From positions 1 through 27,104 of the IMG/VR virus record IMGVR_UViG_3300009103_000129: DNA of 27,104 nt, one strand, 5' to 3'. Shown here in pieces: positions 1 to 26,847 of the stretch (position 1 is the stretch's first letter; every line of letters starts with the position of its first letter). This DNA comes from a virus. The translations under genes and the position numbers were made by a program. The notes beneath the pieces are model-generated. The model searched no databases. It saw only the letters and a program-made list of their open reading frames with translations, and had not been told where the DNA came from.

Positions 1-1164
1 GGCACCGGCAAATCGACACTGAACGGCCGCCCGGATGAAGGCCAGGGCATCATTGCCCAGCTCTATGGCGATGCGCTGTTCCGCACCGGCAACACCAGCG
101 CCGCGGCTATCCGGCAGAGCCTGAAAAACAGCACCGTGCCGGTGATGATCGATGAAGCCGAAGCGAGCGGCGACAACCGCAAGATTACCGAGGTTGTCGA
201 GCTGGCGCGCGTGGCATCGAGCGGCGACAAGATGCACCGGGGCGGCCAAGACCACAGCGCGCACGAATTCACGCTGCAGTCGCCGTTCTGGTTCAGCTCG
301 ATCAACATGCCGCCGCTGGAAGGGTCGGACCGATCGCGCCTGGCCATCCTGGAGCTGCGGCCGTTCCGCGCCGGGGTGACGCCGCCGGATTTCGGGCGAT
401 ACAATTTCGAGGATCTTGGCCGCCAGCTGCATCGGCGCATGATCGATGCGTGGCCGATCCTGGCCGAATGCAAGAGCCTCTATCACAAGGCGCTGGCGGC
501 GGCGGGCCATGACGGGCGCGCGTGTGACCAGTTCGGCACGCTGCTGGCCTGCGCCTGGGTGCTCTTGAATGATGAGCTGCCCGATGAGGACGAGGTGCAC
601 GAATGGGCCACGCTGTGTGCACCACAGCGCCTGTCCGAAGTGTCGGACGCGATCAGCGATGAAGAGGCCTGCGTCAACCGGCTGATGACCGAGCTGGTGC
701 AGCCGCGCGGCCGCGATAGCCGCGAGGCGGTTTCGGAACTGTTGGGGCGCTGGCTGCAGAGCCGGACCAGCCAGCTCGCTGCGGTGGCCGGTGAAGACAA
801 GGGGCTGTATCTCGAGCAGCTGGGCCTGAAAGTCGTCAACCCCAAGCACAAGGGCGACGGCAAGTGGGGCGCGGAATCGTTCATGCCCTATGCCGCACCC
901 GGCTTCGTGGCGGTGGCCAACGCGCATCGCCAGCTCGATCAGATTTTCTCGGGCTCGCGCTGGCAGGGTGGCACCTGGCGCCAGACGCTGGCGCGGCTCG
1001 ACCATGCCATTCCATCGGTCACGATCAGCTTTGCCGGCCACAAGATCCGCGCGGTGCTGGTGCCGCTGTATCACCTTATGGATGATGAGGATTTGCCCGA
1101 GCTGTGCCGGCGCGAGGCCGTGGCGCAGTGGATGGCAGAGCAGACCGGCGAGGCAGCGGCGTAA
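1..1164 (+). CDS. Phage replication P-loop ATPase (helicase/primase type), C-terminal part; 5' end outside window
   Basis: The frame is open from base 1, so this is the C-terminal 387 residues of a longer protein. The first visible residues, GTGKST, fit the end of a Walker A loop. VPVMIDEAE near residue 44 is a Walker B-like hydrophobic strand with an acidic pair. A later segment, FWFSSINMPP followed by DRSRLAILEL, looks like a sensor 1/arginine-finger region of AAA+ or SF3-type ATPases. In phages such ATPases sit at the C-terminus of primase-helicase proteins, so a role in phage DNA replication is inferred. The N-terminal part that would settle the family (primase, DUF927-like or D5-like) is not in the window. 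It is followed by a GC hairpin and a converging gene pair. No starting ATG within the window needs to be invoked. Confidence 0.6.
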   Translation, partial: GTGKSTLNGRPDEGQGIIAQLYGDALFRTGNTSAAAIRQSLKNSTVPVMIDEAEASGDNRKITEVVELARVASSGDKMHRGGQDHSAHEFTLQSPFWFSSINMPPLEGSDRSRLAILELRPFRAGVTPPDFGRYNFEDLGRQLHRRMIDAWPILAECKSLYHKALAAAGHDGRACDQFGTLLACAWVLLNDELPDEDEVHEWATLCAPQRLSEVSDAISDEEACVNRLMTELVQPRGRDSREAVSELLGRWLQSRTSQLAAVAGEDKGLYLEQLGLKVVNPKHKGDGKWGAESFMPYAAPGFVAVANAHRQLDQIFSGSRWQGGTWRQTLARLDHAIPSVTISFAGHKIRAVLVPLYHLMDDEDLPELCRREAVAQWMAEQTGEAAA

Positions 1165-1224
1165 TGCGAGGCGCGCCGCCTGTCTTGCCGCGCGGCGTGG
1201 CCTGGTGCGGGCCGCGCATGCGAG

Positions 1225-1264
1225 ACGGCCGGCGCCGGGGAGGGGAAGCCCGGGCGCCGGCCGT
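1225..1264. terminator. GC-rich hairpin between converging genes, possible bidirectional terminator
   Basis: Perfect 12-base arms (ACGGCCGGCGCC at 1225-1236 and its complement at 1253-1264) enclose a 16-base loop. The hairpin lies between the stop of the replication ATPase (1164) and the stop of the minus-strand 65-residue gene (1275). There is no real T-run on either side, so intrinsic termination is uncertain; position and strength argue for it. Confidence 0.45.
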
Positions 1265-1274
1265 TGGTTTGGGG

Positions 1275-1472
1275 TTAGTCGTTCACCCCGGCCGGATGGC
1301 GCGGATCGAACGTGGCGGCCAGCAGGCGGGCTTCTTCGGCCAGCAGGGCGACGATGCAGCCCGTCTGGCAGCTTTCAACCACGATGCCCTGGGGCTGACT
1401 GCCAAGCAGGGCGGCAAGGCCATCCAGCGCCAGGTGCAGGCGATTGGCGCGGCTTTCGTTGTCGAGGTCCAT
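1275..1472 (-). CDS. Small hypothetical protein coupled to the antirepressor
   Basis: This 65-residue frame starts with ATG at 1472, three bases after the stop of the BRO-N gene. A GGGAGG ribosome binding site lies inside the end of that gene, eight bases from the ATG, so translation is probably coupled. The protein has an acidic start (MDLDNES), a leucine/alanine-rich helical middle (LHLALDGLAALLG) and two cysteines (ESCQTGC). No family is recognised and there is no signal peptide or clear membrane segment. Co-transcription with the antirepressor suggests an accessory role in the lysis-lysogeny decision, which is inference. The strong ribosome binding site and tight spacing are the main reasons to accept so short a gene. 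Confidence 0.55.
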   Translation of the reverse strand: MDLDNESRANRLHLALDGLAALLGSQPQGIVVESCQTGCIVALLAEEARLLAATFDPRHPAGVND

Positions 1473-1475
1473 GGC

Positions 1476-1964
1476 TCATGCCTCCCGCCGGCGATAGACG
1501 CGCACAAAGCCCTGGCGGCGCAGATCGCGCGCGACGGCGCGGCGCGTTTCGGAGCTGTCCTCGCGGTTGGGATGCGCGGCGAAGAATTCAGCCACGGTCA
1601 GTTCCTCGCGGCCGGCGATGAAGGCCAGCACGTCGGGATCGACGGTGTAAGTGCCGGTCTTGCGGATCGCGGGCAGGACTTCACTGGTCACCCACTTGCG
1701 AAACGCGCGCGCCTCGGGGCGCTGGCTGCGCAGGATGCAGGCGTAGAGGCCGCTCTCGGAGATGATGGTGGCCTGCTGTTGGCCGCCAGGGGTGTGCAGA
1801 TCGTGCACACCCTTTTCGTCGTCATCGAGCATGCGAACCATATCGGGCGCGCGACCGTATCCGAGAACCGCAGCGACATCGGTTGCCACGAACCATGGAT
1901 CGTTGCCGCGCTCGATCACACGGACCGAGTGTTCAGCAAAATCGAAGCAAATCAGATTGTTCAT
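1476..1964 (-). CDS. BRO-N domain antirepressor
   Basis: This 162-residue protein has the BRO-N domain over residues 1-105: MNNLICFDF, then PWFVATDVAAVLGY with a helix-turn-helix-like feel, then ISESGLYACILRS and ARAFRKWVTSEVLPAIRKTG, all hallmark BRO-N/Ant segments. The remaining ~55 residues (LTVAEFFAAHP ... ARDLRRQGFVRVYRRR) are basic and resemble a small winged-helix-type DNA-binding tail. In phages such proteins antagonise the prophage repressor or act as DNA-binding regulators. ATG at 1964 was chosen over the 81-residue N-terminal extension (ATG 2207) because BRO-N begins exactly here, GAGAGAGG precedes it, and the extension region is structured leader. The gene runs opposite to the late operon from the promoter at 2263-2290, and is followed by a coupled 65-residue gene. 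Confidence 0.85.
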   Translation of the reverse strand: MNNLICFDFAEHSVRVIERGNDPWFVATDVAAVLGYGRAPDMVRMLDDDEKGVHDLHTPGGQQQATIISESGLYACILRSQRPEARAFRKWVTSEVLPAIRKTGTYTVDPDVLAFIAGREELTVAEFFAAHPNREDSSETRRAVARDLRRQGFVRVYRRREA

Positions 1965-2083
1965 TGCGTTGCTGCCTCTCTCAGGGCCAACAGCACTGCA
2001 TCGCTGGTGGCCGGACGTGACGAGGTTTGCAGTACCGTGGAACGCGCACACGGTGGCGATTGCTCGCCCCTCACCACGCCCGA

Positions 2084-2120
2084 CCATAGGAAAAGCGCCT
2101 ATGGGAAGGCCATGGCGCTT
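2084..2120 (-). repeat. Overlapping, mutually exclusive hairpins in antirepressor leader
   Basis: Two inverted repeats overlap. CCATAGG (2084-2090) pairs with CCTATGG (2098-2104). AAGCGCC (2093-2099) pairs with GGCGCTT (2114-2120). Both cannot form at once, which is the usual layout of an RNA switch or of a target for an antisense RNA. Confidence 0.5.
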
Positions 2121-2148
2121 GATGCGCGCGTCGTGCTCGGGACTGCAA

Positions 2149-2257
2149 CCCCGGCCCGGCTCTCGCCAGGCACCGTGGAAGATGCCGATCGCGACGTGCG
2201 AAGTCAATCCTTGCTCTTTCCGACCATCGGCAAGAGCCTGGCCGGGGCTTTCGGACG
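2149..2257 (-). ncRNA. Structured leader RNA upstream of antirepressor, c4/CI-like candidate
   Basis: Downstream of the minus-strand promoter the transcript can fold into an element closed by an 8-bp stem (2240-2247 with 2149-2156). Inside is a hairpin with GCTCTT/AAGAGC arms (2213-2218, 2232-2237) and an inner CCGA/TCGG stem around TGG. The box ATGGTCGG in this hairpin recurs further down the leader at about 2081-2088. Parts of the element are complementary to downstream leader sequence: bases 2163-2168 plus 2173-2177 match 2049-2059, and bases 2142-2150 match 2024-2033 with a bulge. Phage P1 c4 and P4 CI RNAs are processed leaders that control antirepressor or early genes by such antisense pairing. 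Assignment to those families is inference from layout. Confidence 0.45.
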
Positions 2258-2262
2258 GTCTT

Positions 2263-2290
2263 ATTATTCAGACCAACTAAATCTAGTCAA
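2263..2290 (-). promoter_or_regulatory. Sigma70-type promoter for leader and antirepressor
   Basis: On the minus strand TTGACT (2290-2285) is followed after 16 bases by AATAAT (2268-2263), each five of six to the consensus. The surrounding AT-rich patch stands out in this GC-rich DNA. Transcription would start near 2257 and run through the structured leader into the BRO-N gene. Confidence 0.6.
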
Positions 2291-2629
2291 TATGGATCGG
2301 GGAAAAATTTTCGGCGCGTCCTTGAGCCTGCGTGCGATTGCAGCACGCGCCCGCGCCAAGCGGGCAAGTGCGGTGCGCAATCGCCTGCATTTCAGCCACC
2401 TAGCGCCGTGTGATGTGCCTGGCGCGCCGTTGCCGGTGGCGCCTACGCACGGCCGCAGCGGCGCCGCAGGCGTCGCGGTGCGCGGCCGTTCGCTCTGTCT
2501 CACCCCGGCCCGCTGCGGTGTGCATGGCGTGGCGATTCGCGCCCTGTCCCTGGCTTCGTCCTTGCCCCGGCCCGTTGGCCGTGCGATAAGGTTGGCGCGC
2601 CAGCTGGACGATGCCAATGGGTCCGGGGT

Positions 2630-2673
2630 GCCAGTTGCAAGCGCAACTGCCGTGCAACCGCGTTGCAACTGGC
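2630..2673. repeat. Inverted repeat with GTTGCA boxes
   Basis: GCCAGTTGCAA (2630-2640) is perfectly complementary to TTGCAACTGGC (2663-2673). Another TGCAAC box (2653-2658) lies in the 22-base loop. It is the left member of a cluster of GTTGCA sites. Confidence 0.8.
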
Positions 2674-2704
2674 AAGCGCTTGTTTTTCATACACAATTTT
2701 TGCC

Positions 2705-2806
2705 GGTTGCAGAGTTGCGCGCCCTCCTCACGCGCGATGCGCACGTGTGCGTATGTGCGCGCACACACGTGCACATGTGCGCGTGTGACGCTGCAACTCT
2801 GCAACC
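2705..2806. repeat. 14-base perfect inverted repeat around an alternating purine-pyrimidine tract
   Basis: GGTTGCAGAGTTGC (2705-2718) is the exact complement of 2793-2806. The 74-base interval is occupied largely by the 51-base alternating tract at 2737-2787. Both arms carry GTTGCA boxes. Confidence 0.85.
2737..2787. other. 51-base perfect alternating purine-pyrimidine tract (Z-DNA prone)
   Basis: From A2737 to G2787 every step alternates purine and pyrimidine, made of GC, AC, GT and two or three AT dinucleotides (for example GTGCGCGCACACACGTGC). Such (CG/CA)-rich tracts are the classical sequences that adopt left-handed Z-DNA under negative supercoiling. No codon-based explanation is evident. 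Confidence 0.85.
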
Positions 2807-2841
2807 ATCCATATTTATTCTTACATATCAGTATGTTGTTG

Positions 2842-2877
2842 GTTGCAGTTCAGTTGCAGCGCAGTTGCAGCTGCAAC
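2842..2877. repeat. Phased GTTGCA iterons beside an AT-rich stretch
   Basis: GTTGCA recurs at 2842, 2853 and 2864, exactly 11 bases apart, so all boxes face the same side of the helix. The third merges with an inverted copy into the 14-base palindrome GTTGCAGCTGCAAC (2864-2877). An AT-rich stretch (about 2806-2842) lies immediately to the left. Iterons next to an AT-rich unwinding region are the usual design of a replication origin; a multi-site operator is the alternative. Confidence 0.6.
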
Positions 2878-3137
2878 TGGCGCCGTGCGGTGGCTCGATA
2901 GGCCGATCTGGCGCCCGCGCCGGGAATATTCTGGCGGGCGGATATCGCACCGCGCTGCACCGGGGCTCGATCGATGCGCGCCAGGTGCTGCCCAGCAGTG
3001 TGATGCGGGGGAGGGGCGGCGAAACTTTTGGGGTTTTCGGCCTGGCGGCCGGGCGCGCGATCGGCGGTGCGGCCGCGATCGTGCGGGCTGGGCGGAATGG
3101 CGGATTTCTGCGGGTTTCGGGCGCCGCATCGGGGCGT

Positions 3138-3158
3138 GTTGGAATGGTCATGTTGGAA
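3138..3158. repeat. Pair of GTTGGAA direct repeats
   Basis: GTTGGAA occurs at 3138-3144 and 3152-3158, with a CTTGGAA variant near 3174. The same heptamer occurs three times at the right prophage end (26707-26736), suggesting that one protein may bind both places. Confidence 0.45.
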
Positions 3159-3228
3159 GGCATGGCGCAATGCCTTGGAAATGCTGGGCAAATCGGCCTG
3201 CGGCGTAAGCCTGTCAGGCTGAACGGCG

Positions 3229-3247
3229 AGACCCCCCTGGGGGGTCT
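3229..3247. repeat. Near-perfect C6/G6 palindrome
   Basis: AGACCCCCC (3229-3237) and GGGGGGTCT (3239-3247) are complementary around a single T, giving an 8-bp stem with a tight loop. There is no T-tract, so it is not a standard terminator. Confidence 0.6.
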
Positions 3248-3249
3248 AT

Positions 3250-3288
3250 CGCGCGCGCGGGTGGGTGGGCGCCCCCAAGCGCGCGCGC
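3250..3288. repeat. CG-repeat hairpin with G-runs in the loop
   Basis: Alternating CG tracts at 3250-3259 and 3279-3288 can pair over nine bases. The loop starts with GGGTGGGTGGG (3259-3269). With the G6 run at 3239-3244 this gives four G-runs, a possible G-quadruplex on the + strand. Confidence 0.45.
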
Positions 3289-3516
3289 ACATCCCCAGCC
3301 CGCTGGCGCACCACGTGAACAGGATTTGGATCGGCGTTTCGCGCCGCTCGATCTTGCCGACCCATGCCCAGGGTGCAGCCGGGGCCGGATCGTGGGTGCC
3401 CACCGGCGGGCCGGGGTGTGGGCATCGGGCGATGGTTGGGAGCGCGACGCGGGCCGGGGTGCGGGTGTGTGCACATGGGCGCGTCGCACCGTCAGTGATG
3501 AATCGGGAGGGTGGCC

Positions 3517-4104
3517 ATGTCAACGCGGCGTAACAAGACACCCGGTGGAAAAGTGGAGGCCGGCGCGCTCATTGAGCAAAGCAAGGCGCTAGTAGAAGCG
3601 GCGGCGGCCGAGGAACAACAGCTTTCGATGCTGGAACCGGTGACGCCCGAGGAAATGGCAGTCGCACGCGAGCAGCTGGGGGCGAAAGCCGGGCACCTGA
3701 CGGTGCTGCGCCAGGCCCGGCAAAACCGACGCGGCCGGCCGGCCGGGGTGAAGAACAAGCGGACCGAGGATTTCCGCAAGTACATCCTGGGCTTTGGACA
3801 AGATCCGGCGATCACGCTGATGCAGATTCAAGCGACCGATCCCGAGATCCTGGTGGAGCGATCGGCGGCGATGGACACGGTGAAGCGGCGCCTGTCGTAT
3901 GGCGACGCGCAGCAGCTGCGCGTGCGGTGCGCCGAAGCGCTCATGCCGTTCATTCACTCGAAACAGCCGGTTGCGGTGGACATGAATTTCACCGGGCTTT
4001 CCGATCTGGTGATCGCCGGCGTGACGCATAGCGAGGCCCAGGTGCAGGATATCATCGACGGCGATTTCCTGCCCCTGGACGACGATGGGGAGGCCGATCG
4101 ATGA
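3517..4104 (+). CDS. Putative terminase small subunit
   Basis: This 195-residue protein is the first gene of the late operon, directly before the large terminase, with which it overlaps by ATGA. ATG 3517 is chosen because GGGAGG (3505-3510) sits six bases upstream; GTG 3511 would abut that site. Around residues 70-80 the sequence RRGRPAGVKNK is a basic RGRP-type motif, common at the DNA-binding end of phage small terminases. Residues 85-125 are helical, and the C-terminus is very acidic (DGDFLPLDDDGEADR), as expected for a tail that contacts the large subunit. Function is inferred mainly from position and the basic motif; it would recognise phage DNA for packaging. A different head-region role is possible. 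Confidence 0.6.
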   Translation: MSTRRNKTPGGKVEAGALIEQSKALVEAAAAEEQQLSMLEPVTPEEMAVAREQLGAKAGHLTVLRQARQNRRGRPAGVKNKRTEDFRKYILGFGQDPAITLMQIQATDPEILVERSAAMDTVKRRLSYGDAQQLRVRCAEALMPFIHSKQPVAVDMNFTGLSDLVIAGVTHSEAQVQDIIDGDFLPLDDDGEADR

Positions 4105-5648
4105 GCAATCCCATGCGCAAGCTGATTTCGCCGGGGCCGGTCGCAGACGCGTTCATGCGCAGCCGCGCCTTCATCTGCGGGATTATCGGCCCGGTGGGGA
4201 GCGGCAAGACGATGGCCGCCCTGCAAAAGGGGCTGCGCGTGGCCGCCATGCAGGGCGGTGTACGTGATGCCAATGGGATCATCTGGCGCAAGGCGCGCAT
4301 CGGGATCATCCGCGAAAGCTATCCGTCGATTGAGTCCACCATCCTGAAATCGTGGTGGCAGATCATCCCCAAAAGCGAGGGCAAGTTCAGCCTGCGCGCA
4401 CCCTATACCCATGCGTTTCGCAAGGTGCTGCGCCGCGATGAAGACGGACGCCCGTGCGATATTCTCGATTGCGAGTTCGAATTTCGCGCGATCGGTGATC
4501 AGTCGGTGGAAGAAGCTTGCCGTGGTTGGGAAGTCAACGCGGTAATCGTCGACGAAGCGGATATTCAGCCGGTCGATCTGGTGCCGTTCCTGACGGGCCG
4601 TGTCGGGCGTTTTTCGGACCTTGATCCGTCAACGGTCTATGATCCGCAGATCATCCTTTCGCTCAACATGCCGGATATCGAAAATCATATCTATCAGCTG
4701 TTGATGACCAAAGACGGCGGCGATTTCCTTTCGGATGAAGACAAGGCCGAACTGGCGAAAGTCCTGGGCGAGCGCCCACTGATCGAACGCTTCGTGCAGC
4801 CCGGCGGCCGTGAGCCGGATGCCGAGAATATCCATAACCTGCCGGGCGGACGGGGCTATTACGTGCTGCAGGTCGCGGCAAACCGGCACAAGCCAGGCTA
4901 TGTCGACCGCATGGTCGACAACAAGCCGGTGCCGATCATGTTCGGCATGGCGGTCAATTCCGACTTTGTGCACCGGGTGCATGTGGTCAAATCCGGGGTG
5001 CTCAAGTGGGATCGCCGGCACAAGCTGATCGTGGGGATCGACCAGGGGCTGTTTGCCGCTGCCGCGATCTGCCAGCGCAACAGCTATGGCCAGCTGCGCA
5101 CGCTGGGCGAAGTGGTCAACCTGGCGCCTGGTGGCAAGAACCTGCTGAAAGTTGGCCCAACGGCATTCGGCAAAAAGCTGCGCGCCTTCCTGATGGAAAA
5201 CTTTCCCGGCATCCGGCCCGATGAAATCCGGTGCGTGGGTGACCCGGCAATGTTCGCCGCGACCGATCGCGAGGACGATGAACAGGACTGGCGCCTGGCC
5301 TGCCAGAAGGCGCTGGGGTTCCATATCTTTCGCGCCAAGAGCAACCGCCAGGGGCTGCGCAACGAGGCGATCTGGCGGGCGCAGAAGGAGCGCGAGGGTT
5401 ACCAGATCGATGAGCGCTGCAGCCATCTGATCAAGGCCCACAGCGGCGGCTATCGCTATGTCAAGGCCGAGCTGGGGACGGGTGAGACGCGCGGCCATCT
5501 CGACATTGCCGACACGATCTACACCCACGTAGCCGATGCCGAGCAATACGCCGCGCTCGAAGGCGAGAACGTGATTGCCGAAATCCGCGGGACCGAACGC
5601 AAGGGGCCGCCGATCCACGTCCAATCGGACTGGGACATCTACAGCTGA
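4101..5648 (+). CDS. Terminase large subunit
   Basis: This 515-residue protein is the packaging motor. Residues 30-37, GPVGSGKT, form Walker A. VIVDEAD near 148-154 is Walker B with the catalytic glutamate. The C-terminal nuclease fold shows the usual acidic residues: IVGIDQG near 313, GDPAMF near 381, and HLDIADTIYTHVADAE near 465. The length is normal for the family. It hydrolyses ATP to drive DNA into the prohead and cuts concatemers at the capsid portal. The start overlaps the previous gene by ATGA, so translation is coupled. No frameshift or missing motif is seen. Confidence 0.95.
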   Translation: MSNPMRKLISPGPVADAFMRSRAFICGIIGPVGSGKTMAALQKGLRVAAMQGGVRDANGIIWRKARIGIIRESYPSIESTILKSWWQIIPKSEGKFSLRAPYTHAFRKVLRRDEDGRPCDILDCEFEFRAIGDQSVEEACRGWEVNAVIVDEADIQPVDLVPFLTGRVGRFSDLDPSTVYDPQIILSLNMPDIENHIYQLLMTKDGGDFLSDEDKAELAKVLGERPLIERFVQPGGREPDAENIHNLPGGRGYYVLQVAANRHKPGYVDRMVDNKPVPIMFGMAVNSDFVHRVHVVKSGVLKWDRRHKLIVGIDQGLFAAAAICQRNSYGQLRTLGEVVNLAPGGKNLLKVGPTAFGKKLRAFLMENFPGIRPDEIRCVGDPAMFAATDREDDEQDWRLACQKALGFHIFRAKSNRQGLRNEAIWRAQKEREGYQIDERCSHLIKAHSGGYRYVKAELGTGETRGHLDIADTIYTHVADAEQYAALEGENVIAEIRGTERKGPPIHVQSDWDIYS

Positions 5649-9134: not shown

Positions 9135-9325
9135 GATTGGCTCTTGACGCCCGCCTTACCCTTGCGGGATAAGGGGGGCCTTCGCTGGATTAGCCCGCCC
9201 CAGGCCGGCCCCGGCAGCGCTGGCCCCGATACGGCCCGCCCAAGCGAGCGATATCGCCAGAAACGGCCCCGTGGCGAGCGGACTAGCCTTTCGATCGATG
9301 CTCAAACCATCTTTCGGAGGCTGCC
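9135..9325 (+). promoter_or_regulatory. Structured leader element A before the major capsid gene
   Basis: This is a 191-base gap in an otherwise compact operon. It holds alternative hairpins near the start (CCCGC/GCGGG and CCCTT/AAGGG around 9150-9175), a GGATTAGCC box at 9187-9195 next to CGCTG/CAGCG arms, a hairpin CGCCA (9255-9259)/TGGCG (9272-9276) with GGCCCC in the loop, and a second box GGACTAGCC (9280-9288) followed by TTTCG. A clearly related element lies before the tail fibre gene (21951-22110). It could be a 5' UTR switch, a processing or stability element, or contain an internal promoter. No known RNA family is recognised. Confidence 0.65.
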
Positions 9326-10264
9326 GTGGTTGATCAGGTCAACACCACCGCTCTTGTCACGTACCAATCCAACATGAAGCTGGCTCTGCAGCCCAAGGGC
9401 GGCGAGCTGATCGGCACCTGCCTGGACGGCGATCTTTCGGGCGAGCTGGCCGAAATCGACGACTATTTCGGCGCGGCCGATACCCAGACGGTGCGCGAGC
9501 GCCACGTGCCGATCACGCCGAGCGATGCGCCCCAGGACCGCCTGTGGCTGGCGAAGCCCGATCCAGATTACTATGACCGCCTGGTCAACAAGCAGGATCA
9601 GCTGATGGCCGGCGTGTCGCTGCAGGGCGGCTATGTCATGCAGGGCGCGGCCGCGCTGCGCCGCTATTGGAACCGCCAGTGGCTGAACGGCTTTTTCGGT
9701 GGGCGCCAGACCGGCAAGAAGGGCACGATCATCACGTCGTTCCCGAGCGGCCAGATCGTGCCCTACAACACCGGCTTTGCTGCCGGCGGCACCAACCGCA
9801 TGAACGTGGAAAAGTTCTTTGCCGCGCGCGAAGTGCTGGGCCTGAGCAACGCCGACTTCACCGAAGAAGAGGCGTACATCAACCTGACGCCCAAGCAGAT
9901 CACCGATCTGCTGCGCGAGGTGCAGATCACCAGCAGCGAGTTCACCTCGCTGGGCGGGATGATGAGCCCGGACGGCAAGAAGCTGCTGCGCTTCCTGGGC
10001 TTCAACATCATCGAAATGAACCTGGCCGACGCGCTCTATGCGACCAAGGCGCCGACCACCGAAACGACTGCCGGGGGCACGGTGCGCAAGAACGCGTTCT
10101 GGCTCAAGTCCGGGGTCTATACCGGATTTTGGGAGCGGCTGTTCACCAACATCACGATCCGCGAAGATCTGCACTATGAAACGCAGGTCTATGCGCGCAG
10201 CGCGATGGCGGCGACGCGGACCCAGGACGGTCTTTCCGGCTATATCCAGAACAGCGAAGCCTGA
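9326..10264 (+). CDS. Major capsid protein
   Basis: This 312-residue protein follows the scaffold gene and has the composition of an HK97-fold phage capsid protein. It begins VDQVNTTALVTYQSNMKLALQP and contains the segment DDYFGAADTQTVRERHVPITP. It ends with TRTQDGLSGYIQNSEA, preceded by a beta-rich axial-domain region (NAFWLKSGVYTGFWERLFTNI). It resembles the 'phage capsid protein' family (Phage_capsid_2) of podoviruses and jumbo-type prophages rather than T7 gp10. Start is GTG 9326, five bases after CGGAGG. Many copies would form the icosahedral shell. Codons are the most biased of the window, consistent with high expression. The stop begins a 7-bp-stem hairpin (10263-10285). Confidence 0.9.
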   Translation: MVDQVNTTALVTYQSNMKLALQPKGGELIGTCLDGDLSGELAEIDDYFGAADTQTVRERHVPITPSDAPQDRLWLAKPDPDYYDRLVNKQDQLMAGVSLQGGYVMQGAAALRRYWNRQWLNGFFGGRQTGKKGTIITSFPSGQIVPYNTGFAAGGTNRMNVEKFFAAREVLGLSNADFTEEEAYINLTPKQITDLLREVQITSSEFTSLGGMMSPDGKKLLRFLGFNIIEMNLADALYATKAPTTETTAGGTVRKNAFWLKSGVYTGFWERLFTNITIREDLHYETQVYARSAMAATRTQDGLSGYIQNSEA

Positions 10265-19452: not shown

Positions 19453-21950
19453 CGTTTCTGGTGTGCTTGGCCAAGCTGCGCGAGGAAGGCAAAATCGATC
19501 GCGAGCGGGCCGATCGCTTTGCGCGCGAATATCAGCGGCTGCACGCGAATTTCGCCAAGCAGGTGGGCGACGTTGCGGCCGAGGATCTGGCCACGCGCGA
19601 GGCGATGGACGCGCTGGAATTTCAGGCGCTGACCGATCGGCGGCAAAAGCTGATGCAGATCCGCAACCAGCAGAACCTGCTGGGCCAGATGCAGGCGCAT
19701 ATCGAGGCGGGCGGATCGGCCAAGCATTTCGCAATCGCAGTGATGGATCACCATGAAGCCGTGCCCGGGGTGCAGTCGGTGGACAATACCAAGGGCGCGA
19801 TCGCGCGCCTGGCATGGTCGCGCATGGGCGATTTCCTGCAAACGCATGGGCGCGACGTGCTGGGCCGCGTGCGCGACCAGGCCGGGCTTGACGACGTGGT
19901 GCGCGCGCTGCGCGGCGAGAAGGTGGAGAGCGACAGCGCGCGCGAAATGGCAGCGGCCGTGGCTGATACCATGGAATGGCTACGCGGGCAGTTCAACGCC
20001 GCAGGCGGGGCGATCCCCAAGCTCAAAGACTGGGGCTTGCCACAGAGCCATGACGGATTGGCCGTGGCCCAGGCCGGCTATCAGGAATGGCGGGATTTCA
20101 TACTGCCCAAGCTCGATTGGCAGGCCATGATGGATGCCAGCACCGGCAAGCCATTCGTGAGCCAGGAAGCGCTCGAGCCGGCGCTGGAACAGGCGTGGCG
20201 CAACATTTCCAGCAACGGGCTGGATTCGGCCGAGCCCGGCGCTTTCAGTGGATCGGGAAAGCTGGCCAACCGGCACAGCGATCACCGGTTCTTCACGTTC
20301 CGATCGGCCGATGACTGGCTCGCCTATAACGAACGGTTTGGCGTGGGCACGGTGTTCGACGCGATCACCGGTCATATCGAAAGCATGAGCCGCGATATCG
20401 CGGCGATGCGCGTGCTGGGGCCGAACCCTGATGCCACGGTGCGGTGGATGGGTGACATGCTGCGCAAGGAAAGCATGCCCACGATCGAGGGCGGCAAGAG
20501 CATGCCGCTGGAAAAGGACGCGGCGCGCGGCGCGAAAATCCTGAACGATCTGTGGGATTACTATTCCGGCGAGTTGACCCGGGTGGCACCGGAAAACCGT
20601 TCCACGGCCAGACTGTTCAGCGGGGTGCGCAACTGGAACGTGATGAGCAAGCTGGGTTCCGCGGCGTTTTCAGCGCTGCCGACCGATCCGATGTTTGCGG
20701 GCGTCACGGCGAAATTCAACGGCCTGCCGGTGATGGAGCAAGCGGGCACCTGGCTGCGCACGTTCAACCCTGCCGATGCCTCGCACCGTGAAGCGGCGTT
20801 GCATGCCGGCCTGGTCTTTGCCGAGATGACCGGACGGGCCGAGCGCATGTGGCGGGACGGGCGGTTCAACATGCATGAGTTCACCCGGCGCGGCGCCAAT
20901 GCCCTGCTGGAAACCACGCTGCTGACGCCGCACACGGTGGCGGCAAAGCAGGCAATGGGCCTCGCGTTCATGAAAGACTGGGGCGAGCATGCCGGCGTGG
21001 CATTTGCGGATCTGCAGGAACCCAAGCGCCTGGCGCTGGAACGCTATGGCATCGGGCCCAGCGAATGGGATGCACTGCGCGCCGTGGGGCCGGTCGAGCA
21101 GGGCAGTATCCGGCTGTTGCGCCCGGCCGATCTTGCGCGCCAGGGCGATGACGCGTCGATCGCGGCGGCGGTGAAGTTCATGAGCTTGATCGACAGCGAA
21201 ACGAAGTTCGGCACGCCCGGGGAGAGCCTGCGCGCGCAGGCGGCCGTGGCCACGCTGGGGCATTCTTCGCGCATCGAGCGCGGCACGCTGGGCGGCGAAA
21301 TCGTCCACAGCATGAGCCAGTTCAAAACCTATTCCGTGATCTGGATGATGACGCACCTGGAACGCGCGATCTATGGGCGCGGTGGCATGGGGCGCCTGCA
21401 GTATGCCTTGTCGCTGCCGATCTTCCTGACCATTGGCGGCTTCATCGCTGATACCCTGATCGACATTTCCAAGGGTGAGCAGCCTACGCTGCAGCCAACG
21501 CCGATCCGGCTTTCGCGCGCGTTCGTGCGCGGCGGCGGCCTGGGTATCGTGGGCGATCTGATTTCGCAGGGCGCTGCCGGCGATCGCGGCACGGCCGGCC
21601 CCGTAACCGGGTTCATCGCCGGCCCCACGCTGGGTGCCATTGCCGATCCGATCGCCGCGCTGACGCTGGGCAATCTGGGGGATGCGGCCGGCGGAAAGGC
21701 GACGCATGCCGGCAGCGAGCTGGTCAAGCAGATCCGCACCAGCCTGCCAGGCAGCAACGCCTGGTATGCCCGGGCGGCGATGAACCGGCTGTTGCTGGAC
21801 CAGCTGCAGATGATGGCCGACCCGCATTATCACCAGAGCTTTGCCCGGATGCAGCGCGCGGCGCAGGAACGCGGTTCAACCTACTGGTGGGCGCCTGGGC
21901 AGGCGGTGCCCGAACTTGGCGCAGAAGGCGGCCAGCAGCCGGCGCCTTGA
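19449..21950 (+). CDS. Large internal virion protein (gp16-like, C-terminal half)
   Basis: This 833-residue helical protein begins at GTG 19449 within the stop of the transglycosylase protein (GTGA). An AGGGGG site is five bases upstream; GTG 19443 is the alternative. The C-terminal ~80 residues contain LPGSNAWYARAAMNRLLLDQL, AMMADPHYHQS-like and AQERGSTYWWAPG segments, very characteristic of the largest internal proteins of podoviruses. One hydrophobic stretch (LQYALSLPIFLTIGGFIADTL, near residue 650) could enter the inner membrane. T7 has a single 1318-residue gp16; here the role is divided between two overlapping genes. Confidence 0.85.
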   Translation: MTFLVCLAKLREEGKIDRERADRFAREYQRLHANFAKQVGDVAAEDLATREAMDALEFQALTDRRQKLMQIRNQQNLLGQMQAHIEAGGSAKHFAIAVMDHHEAVPGVQSVDNTKGAIARLAWSRMGDFLQTHGRDVLGRVRDQAGLDDVVRALRGEKVESDSAREMAAAVADTMEWLRGQFNAAGGAIPKLKDWGLPQSHDGLAVAQAGYQEWRDFILPKLDWQAMMDASTGKPFVSQEALEPALEQAWRNISSNGLDSAEPGAFSGSGKLANRHSDHRFFTFRSADDWLAYNERFGVGTVFDAITGHIESMSRDIAAMRVLGPNPDATVRWMGDMLRKESMPTIEGGKSMPLEKDAARGAKILNDLWDYYSGELTRVAPENRSTARLFSGVRNWNVMSKLGSAAFSALPTDPMFAGVTAKFNGLPVMEQAGTWLRTFNPADASHREAALHAGLVFAEMTGRAERMWRDGRFNMHEFTRRGANALLETTLLTPHTVAAKQAMGLAFMKDWGEHAGVAFADLQEPKRLALERYGIGPSEWDALRAVGPVEQGSIRLLRPADLARQGDDASIAAAVKFMSLIDSETKFGTPGESLRAQAAVATLGHSSRIERGTLGGEIVHSMSQFKTYSVIWMMTHLERAIYGRGGMGRLQYALSLPIFLTIGGFIADTLIDISKGEQPTLQPTPIRLSRAFVRGGGLGIVGDLISQGAAGDRGTAGPVTGFIAGPTLGAIADPIAALTLGNLGDAAGGKATHAGSELVKQIRTSLPGSNAWYARAAMNRLLLDQLQMMADPHYHQSFARMQRAAQERGSTYWWAPGQAVPELGAEGGQQPAP

Positions 21951-22110
21951 CGTGATTCGCGGCTTGTGGGAAACAAGCGGCGCCGGACTAGCGGGAACGC
22001 CCCGGCGCCCGTGGTGTGGATCACCCGGCGAGCGGCCGTAAAGCGCCAGAGGTGGCCCCGCGTGGCGGATTAGCCCTTCGCTCATGACTGATCATGTGCG
22101 GGGCGTTGCT
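21951..22110 (+). promoter_or_regulatory. Structured leader element B before the tail fibre gene
   Basis: This gap holds a hairpin GCTTGT/ACAAGC (about 21963-21978), an 8-bp stem GGCGCCGG/CCGGCGCC around a GGACTAGCG box (21985-21993), GCGAGCG, then CGCCA (22044-22048)/TGGCG (22063-22067) with GGCCCCG in the loop, and GGATTAGCC (22067-22075) plus CTTCG. The order and boxes mirror element A before the capsid gene. The last box lies 36 bases from the preferred start, compared with 38 in element A. Confidence 0.65.
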
Positions 22111-24081
22111 ATGACCGTTGGGGTTGAGACCCTTCCTACCACCTATACCGGCGACGGCTCGACCGTCAGCTTTCCGCTGGGGTTCACCTATTCGCAAACC
22201 AGCGATGTGGTGGTCTTGGTGGCGGGCGCGCGCCTGACCGGTGGGTATGCGGTTCTATCCGGGAACGTCGTGTTTGACGTGGCGCCGGCGGCCGCTGCTG
22301 CGATCGTGTTCGACCGCGACACGCCGGTTACCCAGGACGCGGACTTTCCCGCCGCTGGCCCATTCCCGTCGACGGCGTTTGCCAAGCAGCTCGACAAGAA
22401 CGCGCGGATCGCCACCGAGCACAAGCGCAGCCTGGGCGATCTCTACACGCGGTCGCTGATGGCGCCGCTGGGAGAATCCATAGTTTCTTTGCCTCCTGCT
22501 TCAATGCGGATGAATCAGTTTCTCGCATTTGACAGCCACGGCAACCCAGTCATGAGTTTCGGAACCGGTACTGATGCTGGGCTTAGGAACGACCTCGCCT
22601 CCGGCGCATCAGGCAAGGGCGCAGGGCTTGCTGGATTGTCTCTGGATGCAACGTACCCCACCGGCACAGTTGGCGACAGACTGCAGCGCCTAATCTTTGC
22701 GACCGATGCGCCGTTCGCCTGCAAGACCGATGGCACCGACAGCACAGCCGGCATGCAGGCCCTTGCCGCCTTTGTGAACGACACCTCGAAGTGCCCGAAC
22801 GGTGCAATGGTGTGGATGCCTGCGGGGACGATCAAGATTACCTCCAACGTCACGTTTACTAACGACGTGACTTTCGTTGGTCACGGCCCGAACATTTCGT
22901 ATCTGCTTTGCTCCAGCAACGCGCGGCTGATGCTGACCGGCTCGCGGCAAGGCCCTTTCAATACGGCATTCACGCTGCAGGGCTTCGCCATCCTCACCGA
23001 CAACGTGCATGCGTCCAGCCCCATGCATGTGGATTATTCGGCCACCTATACCGGCGACGGTGCGCTGTCGCAGACCTTGACCATGCGTGATGTGCTCATT
23101 GCCGGGCAGAATACATCCTGCGGCTTCAACATCGGGCTGGAATTGGTCGATTGCCCGTGGCCGCGCCTCGAAAACGTGGTGTTTCGCGGCGACAATGCGC
23201 GGACCAGCGCTTACGGCATCAAATACACCGGGACCGATGGCTCGCCTACGTTCCGGTCTGTCCGCGCCTATTTCCTGCAGGACGCGATCTACTGCGAAGG
23301 CCAGATGGAGGGCTACGTCTTTGACGACCTCGAAATCGTCTCGGTGCAGCGGGGGGTGACAGCCAAGGACACGACCAACGGCTTGCAGCCTCGGTTCGTC
23401 GTGCGCAACAGCCATATCAATGCCGAGGAGTGCTGCATCAAGACGGTCGGCATCGACCTTATGCATATTGACGAAAGCAACGACCTTTACGGCCAGGTTG
23501 CTGCTGGCACGTCCACGACTTGGACTGCCGTGGACGTTACCCCGACACTCGCCACCGGCACCAGCAACACGATTGTTTGTAGCGCAGATATTCGGCCAAC
23601 GGTCAACGCCGACGGGGCCTATGCCGCAACCAAGATCGGCGTGCGTGTGCGAGGCGCAGATGTGAGCCTGGAAGATTACGTGCTGGGCGGCATGTATCGC
23701 GGCTGCACGACCGGCATTCAGTTGGGCACCAACACCAACGGTGTCACGATCGACGCTGACACGTTGTTTCGGAATTGCACCACTTCGGTATCCGACGGCG
23801 GCGGCAACAATATCCGCCTGCAAAAAACGAAGGCCGGGACGACGGTTGGAACGACGGCAACCGGTGGTTTGATCGCCATCAGTTTCGGCTCTCTCATACA
23901 GTTCTCCGGGACGCCGATCGTGATCGCGGCCGGCGGCGATGGGGGCAACGAAACCTATACCGTTGTGCAATCAAGCGTGACCGCCGCAGGCTGCAACGTG
24001 CTGGTTGCGAACAGTTCTGGGCCGTTGGCCAGCGGCCAGACGCGACGCGTCAACTGGATCGTTGCGGGTAACGCGCCATGA
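22111..24081 (+). CDS. Tail fibre protein with T7 gp17-like N-terminus and beta-helix
   Basis: This protein of 656 residues (665 if ATG 22084 is used) would bind the host surface. The N-terminus (LPTTYTGDGSTVSFPLGFTY, dVVVLVAGARLTGGYAV, IVFDRDTPVTQDADFP) matches the T7 gp17 attachment domain that docks to the tail. The stretch GAMVWMPAGTIKITSNVTFTN starts a pectate-lyase-like right-handed beta-helix, followed by repeated beta strands (residues ~220-560). The end is strand-rich without a clear enzymatic motif. ATG 22111 fits the domain start and the element B spacing; neither start has a strong ribosome binding site (GGGG at 22100-22103). From roughly 22900 the bases look less GC-biased than neighbours, typical of exchanged receptor-binding modules. 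Confidence 0.85.
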   Translation: MTVGVETLPTTYTGDGSTVSFPLGFTYSQTSDVVVLVAGARLTGGYAVLSGNVVFDVAPAAAAAIVFDRDTPVTQDADFPAAGPFPSTAFAKQLDKNARIATEHKRSLGDLYTRSLMAPLGESIVSLPPASMRMNQFLAFDSHGNPVMSFGTGTDAGLRNDLASGASGKGAGLAGLSLDATYPTGTVGDRLQRLIFATDAPFACKTDGTDSTAGMQALAAFVNDTSKCPNGAMVWMPAGTIKITSNVTFTNDVTFVGHGPNISYLLCSSNARLMLTGSRQGPFNTAFTLQGFAILTDNVHASSPMHVDYSATYTGDGALSQTLTMRDVLIAGQNTSCGFNIGLELVDCPWPRLENVVFRGDNARTSAYGIKYTGTDGSPTFRSVRAYFLQDAIYCEGQMEGYVFDDLEIVSVQRGVTAKDTTNGLQPRFVVRNSHINAEECCIKTVGIDLMHIDESNDLYGQVAAGTSTTWTAVDVTPTLATGTSNTIVCSADIRPTVNADGAYAATKIGVRVRGADVSLEDYVLGGMYRGCTTGIQLGTNTNGVTIDADTLFRNCTTSVSDGGGNNIRLQKTKAGTTVGTTATGGLIAISFGSLIQFSGTPIVIAAGGDGGNETYTVVQSSVTAAGCNVLVANSSGPLASGQTRRVNWIVAGNAP

Positions 24082-26773: not shown

Positions 26774-26847
26774 TGGAGCGGGTGAAGGGAATCGAACCCT
26801 CGTATTCAGCTTGGGAAGCTGCTGCTCTACCATTGAGCTACACCCGC
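26774..26847 (-). tRNA. tRNA-Gly (anticodon CCC), probable attachment site
   Basis: On the minus strand the sequence folds as a 74-base tRNA. The acceptor stem GCGGGTG/CACCCGC is followed by discriminator T and an encoded CCA. The D arm is GCTC/GAGC, the anticodon loop TTCCCAA gives CCC (glycine), and the T arm is closed by GAGGG/CCCTT-type pairing around TTCGATTC. Its 3' end points toward the prophage, the usual orientation for tRNA-targeting integrases, so this is probably attR. The left partner site lies outside the window. Confidence 0.93.

Follow-up and report, generated by a model that had tools for sequence, protein, structure and literature searches.

A conserved leader RNA upstream of the capsid and tail fibre genes of a T7-like podophage and its relatives

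Introduction

The analysed window, a stretch of 27,104 nt of viral DNA (IMG/VR record IMGVR_UViG_3300009103_000129), carries two copies of a conserved RNA element, one before the major capsid gene (element A, read at 9144–9293) and one before the tail fibre gene (element B, read at 21947–22080). Each is a leader RNA of about 110 nt that begins 3–11 nt past a sigma70-like promoter (TTGACG-N17-hexamer). The existence of a conserved RNA is close to certain: its arrangement is kept in relatives, its helices covary, and a covariance model scores at both sites, all beyond chance. The function can be addressed only tentatively.

The window is part of a T7-like podophage in which the head-tail adaptor, capsid, tail, internal virion proteins and fibre were recognised. 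A near-identical 41.8-kb relative (G002) encodes an integrase, a repressor-like HTH protein and an anti-repressor, and the phage is therefore temperate. No Pfam or PHROG match was found for the large ORFs at 1104–3533 and 4101–5648. The latter is, by position, probably the large terminase, diverged past the profiles. A 197-aa ORF at 3511–4104 tracks the element and adjoins the 4101–5648 ORF on its upstream side; since it lies directly before the presumed large terminase, it is read as the small terminase.

C4 RNAs usually target an anti-repressor. A match to the Rfam C4 antisense RNA (RF01695; 52 bits, cut-off 45) lies at 2003–2091 on the minus strand, inside the plus-strand ORF 1104–3533; the anti-repressor gene of G002 is located elsewhere, away from the C4 RNA match. 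At the end of the phage region, a tRNA gene (26777–26847, minus strand, 70.7 bits) may mark an attachment site or flanking host DNA. The window and G002 are similar up to 26653, and over these 26,653 aligned bases the sole difference is at position 9175 (G in the window, C in G002 and L003). This change disrupts the perfect 10-bp arms of an inverted repeat that overlaps the element A promoter, and is either a sequencing error or a real mutation.

The two elements in the window

The features of the two elements and of the genes downstream are as follows.

9144–9172, plus strand: element A promoter, with -35 TTGACG (9144–9149), a 17-nt spacer and the -10-like GGATAA (9167–9172)
9184–9215, plus strand: element A P1, GCTGG-[ATTA]-GCC-loop-GGC-C-CCGGC, bulge at 9189–9192
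9244–9257, plus strand: element A P2, GCGA-gcgata-TCGC, then conserved CAGA
9265–9288, plus strand: element A P3, GGC-C-CCGT-ggcga-GCGG-[ACTA]-GCC, bulge at 9282–9285
9289–9293, plus strand: element A conserved unpaired YTTCG after P3 (alignment A5)
9326–10264, plus strand: major capsid gene (phrog_3437 major head protein, 7e-31)
21947–21975, plus strand: element B promoter, TTGACG, 17-nt spacer, GAAACA
21979–22009, plus strand: element B P1, GGCGCCGG-[ACTA]-GCG-ggaa-CGC-C-CCGGCGCC
22027–22047, plus strand: element B P2, GGCG-loop-CGCC, then AGAGGT
22054–22075, plus strand: element B P3, GGC-C-CCGC-gtg-GCGG-[ATTA]-GCC (54.4 bits with covariance model R1, below)
22076–22080, plus strand: element B conserved CTTCG after P3 (alignment A5)
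22111–24081, plus strand: tail fibre gene (phrog_36601 tail fiber, 2.7e-18), start kept in relatives

The capsid gene starts with GTG at 9326. The fibre start is placed at the ATG at 22111 by conservation in relatives; the longest ORF runs from 22084 in the same frame. The element A promoter is the same in L004-L006 and L007 and overlaps the inverted repeat GCCCGCCTTA/TAAGGCGGGC, one arm of which is altered in the window at 9175. The element B promoter is kept in G003 and G004 and reads TTGACG-N17-GACACA in G005.

The initial annotation had described an ordered set of parts common to both gaps, and these are present. The final box ends at 9288 in A and at 22075 in B, which places the start codons 37 and 35 nt off (given as 38 and 36). 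Its detailed secondary structure was wrong. The CGCCA/TGGCG hairpin that it drew is possible in both A and B but shows no conservation (39.1% paired against 37.1% in shuffles), and the conserved pairing is that of P1, P2 and P3. The promoters, TTGACG at 9144 and 21947, had been missed. Its proposal of a cis-regulatory RNA or an internal promoter is borne out in both halves, as a conserved leader RNA has a promoter-like sequence directly upstream.

Conserved fold and covariation

Capsid-based searches gave five viral relatives, including a Novosphingobium prophage also present in a host genome. Ten more prophages came from Sphingomonadaceae genomes, and 80 loci were retained from 204 matching stretches in IMG/VR, together with seven of a second branch. 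The comparison set amounts to about 85 non-redundant capsid-upstream regions. A 19-base pattern of the core only was found in 29 stretches, and the arrangement was identical in all that were not interrupted by a contig end.

The shared order is a sigma70-like promoter, P1, a small variable hairpin, P2, a linker containing AGA or GAA, P3 and an unpaired YTTCG, followed mostly by 33–63 nt to the start codon. Many alphaproteobacterial copies have an additional strong hairpin between the promoter and P1. P1 has the form S - NYWA - three bases - loop - three complementary bases - C - S', and P3 the form three bases - C - S - loop - S' - NYWA - three complementary bases. A 4x1 internal loop (NYWA opposite one C) is present twice, in P1 and, topologically permuted, in P3. 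In both it lies between a GC-rich stem and a stem of 3 bp, the hairpin being closed at opposite ends. The GGAYTAGCC box consists of the end of S, the 4-nt NYWA bulge and one strand of the short helix. The boxes that the initial annotation had singled out keep their arrangement in relatives, but GGAYTAGCC alone is at chance, with 8 occurrences at no more than one mismatch against 7.3 expected. AT-rich phages have the same fold with other stems (GAC/GTC, CCA/TGG); in these relatives P1 is within the scaffold gene, at its 3' end, where no promoter is evident. Prophages G044, G131 and G350 form a diverged class with CCTC- or TTTC-type loops, as judged by eye.

The fold was compared with shuffled sequence in several ways. 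With the bulge unconstrained, a P3 score of at least 19 was reached in 60% of the 85 non-redundant regions and in 5.5% of shuffles. In MAFFT alignments, the P3 helices were paired in 95.8% of cells (72.2% when shuffled, 21–50% when slid) and the P1 helices in 98.5% (81.1% and 22–54%). Covariation was 0.596 in P3 against 0.190 in shuffles and 0.469 in P1 against 0.159, values reached by none of 500 shuffles for either helix; it was still visible in a wider P1 set that MAFFT had partly misaligned. Because the aligned segments had been delimited by descriptor matches, pairing in them is favoured. The switches from GGC/GCC to GAC/GTC and from GCG/CGC to GCA/TGC (the latter seen in element B P1 of G003 and G004), as well as the many S stems, are apparent regardless of this cut. 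Compensatory change, for which the initial annotation had asked, is found in P1 and P3 but not in its own CGCCA/TGGCG stem.

The evidence for P2 is weaker than for P1 and P3. P2 was tested by a hairpin search because its register in MAFFT failed across groups; the hairpin was found in 51 of 70 elements against 22.9 expected, with over 20 distinct stems. Single-sequence folding gave stabilities no greater than expected in DNA this rich in GC (z about 0) and is not used as evidence, although P1 appears exactly in the minimum-energy fold of element B.

Concerted bulges in P1 and P3

The bulge letters of P1 and P3 agree within each phage and drift jointly between phages. P1 was found to carry the exact 4-mer of its own P3 bulge in 40 of 72 elements. 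Matches with the bulge of another element averaged 8.1 and reached at most 18 in 2000 permutations, and shuffled sequence gave 0.24; the permutation is not a strict probability, because related elements share bulges. Unusual bulges are paired as well: ATAC/ATAC in L050 and Vibrio phage 1.182.O (L166), CTTC/CTTC in L062 and ACTC/ACTC in L147. Where P1 has another observed bulge, it differs by a C/T change. In the window's group, the A and B copies have AYTA at all four sites, and in the Novosphingobium prophage the two copies have AYAA at all four. One loop type per genome is as expected for one trans-acting reader, and the loop letters drift among prophages of a single host family, which argues for a phage-encoded reader rather than the host RNA polymerase.

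Promoters

Of 59 elements, 33 have TTGAC in the 130 nt upstream of P1 (5.2 expected), and these are of the GC-rich alphaproteobacterial type. From the end of the -10 hexamer to P1 there are 3–13 nt or 40–60 nt in most elements. The Vibrio phage has TTTGCA-N17-TAAAAT 15 nt before P1. The spacing between promoter and P1 differs between A and B and between phages, and the boxes therefore act as RNA and not as a promoter-bound DNA operator. A stricter consensus promoter scan did not list these promoters because their -10 hexamers are poor. Inverted repeats with arms of 8–10 bp lie over the promoter in L021, L022, L007 and element A (GGGGGCGG/CCGCCCCC, GGGGCGGCAT/ATGCCGCCCC, GGGCGCCCT/AGGGCGCCC) and are a possible operator for a late regulator.

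Distribution

A whole-genome descriptor scan was dropped as unspecific in GC-rich DNA (144 forward and 169 reverse matches), and a covariance model, R1, was therefore used instead. R1 covers the core of P2 and P3 and was built from 54 training sequences. Both window sites are among these and score 53.4 bits (A) and 54.4 bits (B). In 1.1 Mb of phage DNA, all matches above 27 bits lay before capsid or fibre genes. The 401 Sphingomonadaceae genomes gave eight matches above 43 bits, seven of them directly before the T7-like capsid genes of the Sphingomonadaceae prophages from the capsid-based search. The eighth, in G223, lies where a contig ends and immediately precedes a capsid-like start. The fibre copy of the Novosphingobium prophage scores 31.4 bits. 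The remaining matches were below 30 bits; the ten that were inspected had no phage context and were taken for noise. These scores are not independent, because several training sequences come from the same genomes; the lack of other strong matches is independent of the training set. Nothing further was found in 385 Alphaproteobacteria genomes, and nucleotide BLAST of element A against phages and plasmids gave no match. Within the genomes searched, the element is restricted to phages, before capsid genes in many T7-like phages and prophages that are only distant relatives of one another, and the homologues that the initial annotation had called for do exist, with its boxes retained in their arrangement. 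Tail-fibre copies were found in the window's group and in the Novosphingobium prophage. BcepC6B, a relative by its portal protein, has a 10-nt gap before the capsid gene, without the element.

The family may extend to pelagiphages, whose membership is tentative. In HTVC010P, Lederberg, Greip and Skadi-1, the 3' end of a small gene that precedes the capsid gene holds a P1-like hairpin with the sequence GGTAAG-ACAA-TTC-loop-GAA-C-CTTACT or a close variant, and the P1-like bulge is ACAA or AAAA in pelagiphages L164, L170, L203 and L206. No clear P3 was found in the capsid-upstream region of the four named phages. In Skadi-1 the loop of the hairpin is enlarged and the stems are kept. Upstream of the capsid gene of L208 (MW202510), a single TTGG-ATAA-TCT strand can pair with an upstream AGA-C-CC or a downstream AGA-C-CCAG, so that P1-like and P3-like forms of the motif compete for one strand.

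Relation to known elements

The initial annotation had recognised no described family, and this stands: Rfam release 15 had no match on it at the gathering cut-off, and none in ten related loci at E<=0.5. No description was found in the literature; most subscription journals were outside the search, so this is no proof of novelty. We judge it to be a new RNA family of the kind of the phage cis-acting leader RNAs, and do not file it as a member of put or nut.

In phage HK022, put RNA acts on the zinc-binding domain of the RNA polymerase beta' subunit and suppresses pausing and termination. The putL and putR sites are cis-acting RNAs downstream of promoters, with two main bulged hairpins and two copies per genome, and work with the host RNA polymerase (PMC9378689). 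The elements described here resemble them in being phage cis-acting RNAs with bulged hairpins, present in two copies per genome at transcription-unit starts. They differ in that put is about 70 nt long, has two hairpins and belongs to early promoters and operons, whereas the present elements sit downstream of a promoter-like site before late genes. They also differ in loop letters that vary within one host family, which suggests a phage-encoded reader. The best R1 match on the HK022 genome (9.7 bits at 10109, in the late region) is at chance level, and put was not detected.

In lambda, the nut leader RNA has a recognition element that, along with its reader N, changes from one related phage to the next. 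The elements share with nut their place in a leader RNA, a recognition element varying between related phages, and copies in two operons. They differ from nut in that the anatomy seen to be conserved is that of two permuted internal loops (P1/P2/P3, NYWA) rather than an evident boxA with a boxB hairpin, in that they precede late and not early genes, and in that no N-like protein was identified.

Function

The best explanation is a promoter-proximal cis-acting leader RNA giving elongation control of late operons. A host-type sigma70 promoter would start the late transcript, the first ~110 nt of which would fold into P1, P2 and P3. P1 and P3 would then display one asymmetric internal loop in two topologies, and a single co-evolving partner, in the simplest case an RNA-binding protein of the phage, may bind both loops. 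The complex would most likely act on the transcribing host RNA polymerase, as with lambda nut/N or HK022 put, and the outcome would be read-through of long late operons, one running from capsid to internal virion proteins and the other from fibre to lysis. By analogy, such an RNA would be nut- or put-like in position and logic, with two late-unit starts and one loop type per genome. What the two sites have in common is the start of a transcription unit and not a high protein demand. The protein partner, its phage origin and elongation control itself are inferred. Apart from structural and replication genes, a gene-content comparison showed no small gene that followed the element, there was no candidate for an N-type protein among ten G002 genes, and the late operon had no convincing terminators (11 terminator-like sites against 13.9 expected, both strands). 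Because no partner was found, no terminator target is evident and translational or stability control is nearly as good, elongation control is held at a little short of even confidence.

Translational or mRNA-stability control, in which the stability or translation of capsid and fibre mRNAs would depend on a phage protein bound to the two loops, or on a fold that blocks RNase, remains a real possibility that is given a sizeable minority of the credence. The element always lies directly before a gene, mostly 33–63 nt from the start codon and in nearly all cases that of the capsid. The extra strong hairpin between promoter and P1 in many alphaproteobacterial copies is like that of mRNA-stabilising leaders, and an adjacent promoter is not evident in AT-rich phages. 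However, no conserved pairing masks the ribosome-binding site, and the element of the sphingomonad group is located at the promoter end. Since the fibre is present in few copies, a shared demand for high translation is unlikely.

It is improbable that the conserved feature is only a late promoter with a DNA operator, the hairpins being by-products of GC-rich operator DNA. The promoter is indeed conserved, and inverted repeats lie over it in A, G005, G355 and G333. The covariation already contradicts this idea, as P1 and P3 undergo compensatory changes with the loop letters kept, AT-rich phages form the same fold with different stems (GAC/GTC, CCA/TGG), and the distance to the promoter varies. 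Equally little weight is given to a structural or trans-acting RNA, for instance a counterpart of pRNA, the packaging RNA of phi29, or a small stable RNA liberated from the leader. A compact multi-hairpin fold of ~110 nt with duplicated loops and its own promoter would suit such a role, but one clade has two copies per genome, no U-tract terminator follows P3, and T7-like packaging is not known to use RNA.

In T7, phi10 and phi17 are DNA promoters for the phage RNA polymerase, before capsid and tail fibre (genes 10 and 17), and the elements occupy the same two positions in gene order. That they are promoters for a T7-like phage polymerase is hardly credible, since the sigma70-type -35 is correctly placed, the promoters are host-type and the conserved part is a large folded RNA rather than a 20-bp DNA box; the lack of a match to single-subunit RNA polymerase (PF00940) in the window or its relatives is weak evidence, as control genomes were also unmatched.

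Concluding remarks

Skadi-1, a pelagiphage of the HTVC010P type, is reported to encode no RNA polymerase, and only predicted promoters, with no terminators or riboswitches, were found in it (PMC10504331). In its widest form, the proposal would cover T7-like phages that have no RNA polymerase of their own, whether temperate or lytic, with marine pelagiphages and a Vibrio phage among them. These would share an undescribed, deeply conserved RNA that controls late genes, and a single factor encoded by the phage would recognise both permuted copies of the loop and license the host RNA polymerase for late transcription. So broad a claim is speculative and, on balance, unlikely to hold in full. Among the T7-like phages that lack an RNA polymerase are very common marine viruses, and little is known of the way in which their late genes are turned on through the host polymerase. 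The conserved leader RNA, placed as it is at the capsid promoter, offers a concrete candidate for this late switch. A loop that is repeated in permuted topologies and drifts in concert makes its binding partner and specificity directly testable, and the covariance model provides a marker for the late promoters of this phage group.
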